DNA of 64,000 nt from Ilyomonas limi (GTDB lineage: Bacteria > Bacteroidota > Bacteroidia > Chitinophagales > Chitinophagaceae), in the NCBI RefSeq assembly GCF_005233845.1, contig NZ_SZQL01000012.1, positions 1 through 64,000 on the forward strand, in the 5' to 3' direction. Positions 60,642-64,000 of the stretch are shown piece after piece. Position numbers and translations under genes: made by a program. The number at the start of each line of letters is the position of its first letter. Within the stretch, counting starts at the first letter, position 1. The notes beneath the pieces were generated by a model. That model saw nothing but the letters and a program-made list of their open reading frames with translations. It was not told the DNA's origin and made no database searches.

Positions 60642-60673
60642 CCCCTCTCCACACGAGTGGGAGGGGCGGGGGC
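60642..60673. repeat. G-rich palindromic repeat abutting the M3 peptidase start
   Basis: cccctctccac and gtgggagggg form a near-perfect hairpin, followed by cgggggc. The core aggggcgggggc also occurs in the thrB N-terminal region (minus strand 63867-63879). The frame of the peptidase is open through the repeat back to a GTG at 60657. Confidence 0.6.
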
Positions 60674-60692
60674 GAGTTTAAAACAACTTATT

Positions 60693-62954: not shown

Positions 62955-63926
62955 TTATTGCTGCACCTTTACCCCTTCGCCATTAATCCTGGTTACATAC
63001 GTATGGAAGTCTATTCCTATGCGGGTGAAAATAGCTGCCATTATTTGTGCTATCTGTTGTGCGGTAGCTTCTTCTTTGCTTAGCATAAAAACAGAAGGTC
63101 CGCTACCCGAAATACCGCCACCCAAAGCGCCAGCGGCTTTGCATTTCTTCTTCAATTCGTCAAAGCCCGGAATGAGCATACTGCGCACCGGCTCTATAAT
63201 AAAATCTTCCAATGAGCGACCAATCAAATCGTAATCTTCTTTCAAAAAACCAGCAACCAAACCGCCCACATTTCCCCACTGCTTAATAGCATCTTTGAGG
63301 AGCACTTTTTGCTTCAAAATAGCGCGGGCATCAGCTGTTCTTACTTCTATCTGCGGGTGTACTACCGTTACATATAAGTTGGGAGCAGTAAGCGGAATAA
63401 TATCTAATGGAAAAATGGAGCGAATGAGTGTAACGCCGCCATAAATACAAGGCGCAATGTTGTCCGCGTGTTTAACACCACTTGCTACTTTTTCGCCAAA
63501 CATCGCAAACTGAATGAGTTGCTCTTTACTAAAGCGATTACCTAATAAATGGTTAGCTGCTACTACTGCACCTGCCGCACTGGCTGCACTGCTGCCCACA
63601 CCGCTGCCCGGTTTGATACGCTTATGTATTAATACTTCAAAACCGATGTTTTCATCCACCTCTTTCAGCATTTCTATGAGTGGCGCACCTGCCGTATTTT
63701 GTGCAGGATCTTCGGGCAAAGGATAACCATCGGCACTGCGCACGATAATGTTAGGCTCATCCAATAGCTTCACATCCATAATATCGTATGGCTCGTGCAG
63801 GCAAAGCCCCAGCACATCAAAGCCGCAAACCAAATTGGCAACCGTGGCAGGACTAAAAACTCTAATGCCCCCCGCCCCTGAAGGGGAGCTTGTAGCTGCT
63901 GAGGTGGAAGGGGAGTTATTGTTCAT
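62955..63926 (-). CDS. thrB: Homoserine kinase
   Basis: The 323-residue GHMP kinase has the ATP loop GSGVGSSAASAAGAVVAAN (about 110-128), the substrate motif ATVANLVCGFDVLGLCL (about 27-43) and the C-terminal GGGISGSGPSVF motif. It phosphorylates homoserine in threonine synthesis. Residues 1-20 (MNNNSPSTSAATSSPSGAGG) have no counterpart in usual ThrB proteins, which begin near IRVFSPATVANL. They are encoded by the G-rich repeat also seen at 60642. The start codon overlaps the end of a DUF559-like gene. The gene normally follows thrA; here foreign sequence intervenes. Confidence 0.94.
   Translation of the reverse strand: MNNNSPSTSAATSSPSGAGGIRVFSPATVANLVCGFDVLGLCLHEPYDIMDVKLLDEPNIIVRSADGYPLPEDPAQNTAGAPLIEMLKEVDENIGFEVLIHKRIKPGSGVGSSAASAAGAVVAANHLLGNRFSKEQLIQFAMFGEKVASGVKHADNIAPCIYGGVTLIRSIFPLDIIPLTAPNLYVTVVHPQIEVRTADARAILKQKVLLKDAIKQWGNVGGLVAGFLKEDYDLIGRSLEDFIIEPVRSMLIPGFDELKKKCKAAGALGGGISGSGPSVFMLSKEEATAQQIAQIMAAIFTRIGIDFHTYVTRINGEGVKVQQ
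63867..63915. repeat. G-rich palindromic repeat inside the thrB coding sequence
   Basis: On the minus strand the repeat reads ctccccttcaggggcgggg and on, with the hairpin cccct/aggggc. It shares aggggcggggg(g)c with 60662-60673. It encodes residues of the extra N-terminus of ThrB without breaking the frame. Confidence 0.6.
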
Positions 63927-64000
63927 GTTGAATGATTTGTTTTATTTGATTGAGTACACTTTCTAAATTATTCATTACTTTTTCATTCTTAAAACGAAAG
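63916..64000 (-). CDS. DUF559-type endonuclease-like protein, C-terminal fragment (runs off window)
   Basis: The minus-strand frame from the window edge reads FRFKNEKVMNNLESVLNQI, then KQIIQHEQ and a stop at 63916-63918. The pattern 'RF.NE.V..NLE.VL..I' is the C-terminal helix of DUF559 (Vsr/MutH-like) proteins. The stop overlaps the thrB start (atgaacaataa). Only 27 residues are visible, so the call rests on a short motif. Confidence 0.55.
   Translation of the reverse strand, partial: FRFKNEKVMNNLESVLNQIKQIIQHEQ

Follow-up and report, generated by a model that had tools for sequence, protein, structure and literature searches.

A predicted nuclease gene bounded by hairpin repeats and lying in frame within bacterial genes resembles a previously unrecognised kind of selfish element

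The REP/REPIN repeats that are associated with RAYT genes are imperfect palindromes occurring as inverted pairs, and few enzyme genes accompany many repeats. Palindromic repeats can also be part of coding sequence, and the Rickettsia palindromic elements (RPE) are described in the main text of PMC10969869 as lying in frame in unrelated protein-coding genes. Homing endonucleases are another group of relevance, with EDxHD counted among six homing families that have been described (PMC3943268). The Pfam family DUF559 groups proteins of unknown function. Caulobacter cells in which a cytosine methylase has been deleted require one member, VsrA, for their DNA-damage response, and this protein has been proposed to act in mismatch repair (PMC12907096).

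The window analysed here is a stretch of 64,000 nucleotides of Ilyomonas limi (Bacteroidota; contig NZ_SZQL01000012.1, hereafter C4, positions 1 to 64,000), and the contig runs past it. The minus strand near the end of the window encodes the homoserine kinase ThrB (ORF 62955..63926) and, upstream of it, the 3′ part of a DUF559 nuclease gene (63916..64000; PF04480 match of 106 bits). The DUF559 domain occupies C4:63931-64245 on the same strand as thrB (profile E 4.4e-30), and the stop codon TAA of the gene (63918-63916) overlaps the thrB start by 11 nt, which agrees with the original prediction that a DUF559 C-terminus runs into the start of thrB. The first 20 codons of thrB, including the start codon (63867..63926, minus strand; MNNNSPSTSAATSSPSGAGG), directly precede the conserved start of the ThrB family, IRVFSPATVANLVCGFDVLG, and are supplied by the inserted unit, as revealed by the ORF translation, by a second copy before a DUF58 gene and by ThrB relatives. 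All 20 residues had been assigned to a palindrome; they do all come from the unit, but only about seven of them (SSPSGAG) are encoded by the palindrome proper and the others by the rest of the unit. The extension is foreign to the family, as had been proposed. In 29 other thrB loci compared by eye, the usual start is a methionine and a few residues followed by the conserved block; several of the 29 have other short extensions, and three (L197, L201 and L203) have repeat-like codons at this place, with no DUF559 on their contigs among the matches listed. The thrB body was matched in 74 of the 119 genomes searched, some of these matches being weak and to related kinases only.

The thrB unit measures about 545 bp and consists of the DUF559 gene between inverted G-rich hairpin repeats of about 43 nt. 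The right terminal repeat (63867..63909, minus strand) reads GCCCCCCGCCCCTGAAGGGGAGCTTGTAGCTGCTGAGGTGGAA on the plus strand, and its left partner lies just past the window, with the outer end near C4:64411. The pattern of the thrB-type repeat matches at C4:63868-63888 and C4:64390-64410, and the inverted-repeat score is 23.0 compared with 12.0 for the best of 20 shuffles. The predicted combination of a nuclease gene and a palindromic repeat is thus correct in its components, with the amendment that repeats stand on both sides of the nuclease. The G-rich core AGGGGCGGGGG occurs twice in the window versus 0.02 expected occurrences, and one match, at 60662, belongs to a solo hairpin repeat (60642..60676, plus strand) upstream of the likely start codon ATG (60693) of an M3 peptidase gene. 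This repeat had been considered a relative of that at thrB. The G-rich core is indeed common to both, and no DUF559 gene adjoins the solo repeat, but the type is different: it is not among the genome matches of the thrB-type repeat and, by eye, resembles the end of the LeuRS-type unit of the same genome (the CCCCTCTCCAC arm).

A profile search of the contigs found three DUF559 genes in the Ilyomonas limi genome. All three are flanked by G-rich repeats as judged by eye, and the pairing of the ends exceeds shuffles in two of them: the thrB and leucyl-tRNA synthetase (LeuRS) units score 23.0 against 12.0 and 10.5, and the unit before the DUF58 gene on contig C1 narrowly misses, with 10.5 against 11.0. 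The DUF58 protein begins with the same 20 residues as ThrB, and the thrB and DUF58 units are identical over 455 nt save one substitution and one 1-nt gap, while their left ends differ. Near-identical units with different left ends suggest copying by recombination into an existing repeat. LeuRS carries the third DUF559 copy as an in-frame insert within a 1117-aa open frame, and the hairpin type of this copy is found at two places in the genome. The thrB-type repeat has 43 genome matches with at most two mismatches and none in the reversed control, and the surroundings of 30 of the 43 were examined. Nine inverted pairs of this repeat, spaced by 75-189 bp, lack an adjacent DUF559 match. Solo or paired repeats encode the N-termini of an ArgC-type semialdehyde dehydrogenase, CutC, a HAD hydrolase and a Mur ligase, as found by reading the frames, and one repeat is situated inside a histidine kinase.

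The association of DUF559 with such repeats, which had been expected for this genome, extends to copies in relatives and in other phyla. Among the matches listed, DUF559 was found in 91 of 196 genomes. The relative set comprises 83 copies in 80 loci, namely 82 of the best 85 of the 150 matches listed plus one neighbour; three good matches of the 85 were skipped, one of which contains a stop. The named-genome set comprises the best 80 of at least 571 loci. The two sets overlap in at least three loci (L216/L071, L241/L070 and L280/L056), which are counted twice in the active-site tally below. Flanking inverted repeats scoring above 20 shuffles were found in 62 of the 83 relative copies versus 6 of 120 random windows, and in 59 of the 80 named loci; in the remaining 21 relative copies no end repeat exceeded the shuffles. 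In 33 of the 83 copies, the copy's own right end is a better partner for the left end than any of the 40 foreign right flanks with which it was compared, and in some of them this fit reaches the hairpin loop. A C/T-G/A hairpin with arms of at least 6 stands on both sides of DUF559 in 48 of the 83 copies and in none of 200 random windows. Of 21 copies outside Bacteroidota, the hairpin flanks 11 on both sides and is present on one side or both in 17; the grouping followed record titles and placed an Ignavibacteria bin and one uncultured bacterium outside the phylum. Three end types can be distinguished by tail motifs that were written after seeing the flanks. They type 37 of the 83 copies on both sides, and the types are distributed in accordance with the nuclease tree, on which they need 7 changes compared with a mean of 16.7 after shuffling.

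Many copies are embedded in longer genes. Frames of more than 250 aa contain 54 of the 83 relative copies and 47 of the 80 named loci. By our own count, DUF559 lies in such frames in 65 of the 150 matches listed, and GIY-YIG, another small nuclease, is embedded likewise in four of the 139 that are not of UvrC size among 150 listed. The hosts include LeuRS (two sites), MetRS, MetH, AroC, ThrB, ArgB, HisF, UvrC, CinA and restriction enzymes. Pfam confirmed DUF559 within or fused to LeuRS, MetH, UvrC, HisF, MmeI, ThrB, IspG, RecQ, methylmalonyl-CoA mutase, an Lhr-type helicase, HemE, MetRS, adenine deaminase, AroC, CinA, an ArgB-type kinase, an M23 peptidase and HsdR; IleRS, HisA and other hosts were assigned by BLAST to labelled copies and by eye. 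In the named set, 33 of the 47 loci match hosts already seen, L288 weakly, and the set adds HisF (four loci of Pedobacter, one of them run in Pfam), UvrC and MmeI as hosts. For four loci with frames of more than 250 aa (L232, L256, L269 and L283) no host was recognised, and these frames may have arisen by chance. Two restriction enzymes with DUF559 also contain a second nuclease: a GIY-YIG domain is in frame in the HsdR of L034 (aa 265-331), and the 1469-aa enzyme of L098 (genome G147) matches GIY-YIG as well.

Insertion is not confined to gene starts, as had been supposed, since 84 of the 101 embedded copies begin more than 150 codons into the frame. An ATG is present within the 45 codons up to the domain in 39 of these 84 internal copies versus 57 of 62 lone copies, and an ATG, GTG or TTG in 70 of 84 versus 62 of 62. 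This indicates that many internal copies would be made only as fusions if ATG is required, and few if it is not. Internal stops in 5 of the 150 matches listed indicate that decay occurs. Relatives of the DUF559 protein of the window were found in 36 of 72,556 plasmid records and 2 of 50,697 phage records.

Occupied and empty sites in relatives were compared for LeuRS, where both states exist. There are 22 copies in 21 LeuRS genes at two sites, one gene having both: site 1, before TTRPDTIFG, with 16 copies, and site 2, before TMPGYAGSSWYFLRYMDP, with six. In empty LeuRS, the distance between the NWIG and TTRPDT motifs is 23-39 aa in 36 of 40 genes, the other four being without a motif; these genes were chosen by frame length and are not a random sample. 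In occupied site 1 the distance is 157-245 aa in 16 of 16 cases, with the frame open throughout, and carriers are 132-220 aa longer there. Each site falls in a variable loop. Of the 15-column windows immediately downstream, the best ranks at the 90th percentile of conservation for site 1 and at the 98th for site 2; of those upstream, the best ranks at the 80th and 59th, respectively. On the LeuRS tree (FastTree, 59 of 61 genes, two partial genes being left out), site 1 requires 13 changes for 15 occupied of 59 genes, with well-supported branches forcing at least 10 changes for the 14 site-1-only rows, and site 2 requires five changes for six occupied genes. Congeneric genomes share occupied sites (G187/G195 and G007/G106), which indicates that vertical inheritance also occurs.

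By eye, neither a target-site duplication nor a fixed insertion base was seen at LeuRS site 1, and in several genes the loop is partly replaced at the insert. The empty site-1 loop is itself palindromic in L134 (TCAATTTTCAAATCAAAGATTTGAAAATTGA) and L135, and short tandem repeats are present in some other empty LeuRS loops. Solo in-frame hairpins away from any DUF559 insert were noticed in LeuRS of L118 (aa 852), L122 (aa 923), L078 (aa 683) and L049 (aa 993). The 72%-complete genome G012 has two different LeuRS genes (L075 and L107), each with a DUF559 insert, and is possibly a mixed bin. An AlphaFold model of LeuRS with the insert was discarded (mean pLDDT 45 with seven sequences). Splicing of the insert is disfavoured by the lack of a Pfam intein family and by the frame running through all 16 site-1 cases; translational bypassing is disfavoured because it would need no open frame.

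The active site of the nuclease is under constraint. None of the 101 embedded copies has lost D42, E53, D55 or D68, and 60 of the 62 lone copies retain all four; E14 and H59 show no variation across the 163 rows. Of eight pairs compared, four gave dN/dS values of 0.04, 0.06, 0.11 and 0.19, with dS above 1 in three of the four pairs with usable dS; three other pairs are saturated, and the pair from the Ilyomonas limi genome differs by one base, a replacement. A profile search of solved structures gave 3hrl (NGO0050; E 2.3e-33) and I-Bth0305I (3r3p; E 8.9e-6). The predicted fold of a Pedobacter copy (mean pLDDT 88.6) also matches 3hrl first and then 3r3p (E 8.3e-4), with weaker matches to mitochondrial ribosome proteins and modified-cytosine restriction enzymes. 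Judged by profile match and predicted fold, the nearest solved homing enzyme to DUF559 is I-Bth0305I. The nuclease tree, built on 108 columns, is poorly resolved. Host-site labels are clustered on it (29 changes, 50.5 when shuffled), yet mixed: copies from LeuRS site 1, LeuRS site 2 and AroC fall in one clade, which indicates that strict homing to one site is insufficient.

DUF559 was also found in the homing-endonuclease position of three inteins (L231, L233 and L260), all in DNA methylases, two from closely related Microcystis and one from Desulfuromonadales. The intein blocks were identified by eye from their motifs; the Pfam family Intein_splicing matched L231 with 20.9 bits (cut-off 35.8) and gave no match in L260. 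No matching end repeats were found at these three inteins. An intein with DUF559 holds repeat-like codons, for example PPNSPDIGGA. In the LeuRS, MetH, UvrC, HisF, ThrB and AroC cases Pfam reported no intein family.

The checks that were run support the core idea of the original prediction, and the thrB case is one instance of something much larger. The predicted mobile unit of endonuclease and palindrome does enter genes and leave frames open; its mobility we infer from its distribution. It seems, with a probability of roughly 0.6, that the unit is a selfish element with a homing-type nuclease, translated in frame and unspliced, for which cleavage and transfer would be the means of spread. The chances are about even that such units form a class of selfish elements living as translated protein, with hairpin ends serving as codons, essential enzymes occupied without splicing, the element retained because the host gene is required, and solo hairpins left as new N-termini. 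The unit appears to represent a kind of selfish element that had escaped recognition. No description of such elements was found in the literature searched, which covers subscription journals thinly and may miss older work.

In this proposed mechanism the DUF559 protein would be a homing-type nuclease of the PD-(D/E)XK/EDxHD type with a Vsr-like fold, and the ends of the unit are inverted repeats, each able to fold as a polypyrimidine/polypurine hairpin with a tail. Because the unit can be read through in frame, it can occupy variable loops that adjoin conserved motifs in essential proteins, and at gene starts it supplies a new start codon. Rather than being removed by splicing, it would be translated as an additional domain, which probably stays in the protein. 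Repair of a cut made by the nuclease in the empty allele or in a solo hairpin is the most likely way for the unit to be copied in; the solo hairpins and the shorter repeat pairs would represent its non-autonomous or decayed forms. The mixed clade of LeuRS and AroC copies suggests that the unit can also reach new genes, and a hairpin-directed cut would explain both homing and this wider reach. The role of the Caulobacter protein in the DNA-damage response suggests that the family can probably act on chromosomes.

The same role of VsrA, with the mismatch repair proposed in the main text of PMC12907096, can be read as a sign that DUF559 serves the host in Vsr-like mismatch repair or defence, the repeats being recombination hot spots and the in-frame fusions a by-product of selection against broken hosts. 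The constraint on the active sites would be expected from this explanation too. It is nevertheless unlikely, since patchy occupancy, matching end repeats, many unrelated hosts, the presence in inteins and kinship with I-Bth0305I fit a selfish element better.

If the G-rich palindromes were ordinary REP or MITE sequences moved by a RAYT (Y1) transposase, DUF559 would be a passenger. Y1_Tnp is present in 145 of the 196 genomes, specifically in 29 of 31 with type-A repeats versus 116 of 165 without (p 0.006). DUF559 is present in 25 of the 31 versus 66 of the 165 (p 5e-5, uncorrected for kinship), the other six of the 31 yielding no match to it, or, setting aside repeats at DUF559 genes, in 23 of 29 versus 68 of 167 (p 2e-4). 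As Y1_Tnp also co-occurs with repeats, co-occurrence alone does not exclude RAYT, and the flanks do better. A sample of 20 Y1_Tnp genes was drawn from eight genomes, that of the window and seven with type-A repeats. Flanking inverted repeats exceeded shuffles in 10 of the 20, mostly with other sequence such as ACCCCGAAGGGGT, and the DUF559-type hairpin was found at none of the 20, as against both sides of DUF559 in over half of the relative copies (48/83). One of the 20, L301, is a near miss below the threshold, with a C-rich pair and a 5-bp TCCCT/AGGGA hairpin. With the end type following the DUF559 tree as well, movement by RAYT appears quite improbable. Several RAYT genes (L295-L314) have palindromes of their own, which look like a separate, second repeat system.

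That the units are decaying relics of old gene fusions, with no present mobility, is very improbable: occupied sites common to congeneric genomes and the few internal stops among the matches listed would agree with it, but the two almost identical copies in the genome of the window, the intact active sites of all embedded copies and the many changes of state argue against it. Chance or assembly artefact, conceivable where many source genomes are draft assemblies, is refuted by the controls, with no repeat match in the reversed genome against 43 found and the same structures in named isolates such as Pedobacter and Taibaiella.

If the reading as an unspliced selfish element is true, many members of the DUF559 family gain a role, a recurrent in-frame repeat in bacterial proteins is explained, and mobile genes have an additional route into essential genes beside inteins and introns. 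Two questions also become accessible to experiment: by what route palindromes come to lie in frame in coding sequence, and whether new segments of proteins arise from them.

Compared with a classical insertion sequence, the unit has DUF559 as the one gene seen in it and shows no duplication by eye at LeuRS site 1. Its nuclease belongs to the same domain family as the Vsr-like DUF559 endonucleases VsrA and NGO0050 (3hrl); VsrA has been proposed as a repair enzyme, and palindromes are unmentioned in the main text of PMC12907096. With REP/REPIN systems the units share imperfect palindromes, inverted pairs and few enzyme genes beside many repeats. They differ in that the enzyme is DUF559 and not a Y1 transposase, in repeats unlike those at the 20 sampled RAYT genes, and in lying inside genes in frame. 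RPE are similar in that a palindromic repeat is translated in frame inside genes, as found here from the frames of thrB, DUF58 and others. However, RPE are about 150 bp long, with nucleases unmentioned in the main text of PMC10969869, whereas the present units enclose a nuclease gene and, unlike RPE, occur in Bacteroidota and other phyla. Homing endonucleases of the EDxHD type such as I-Bth0305I resemble the units in having a related nuclease domain with the active site kept, sites beside conserved motifs, patchy occupied and empty sites, and DUF559 also inside inteins. Unlike inteins, the LeuRS, MetH, UvrC, HisF, ThrB and AroC inserts belong to no intein family, and, in contrast to both homing genes and inteins, the units are bounded by hairpin inverted repeats and multiply also as gene-less repeat pairs.
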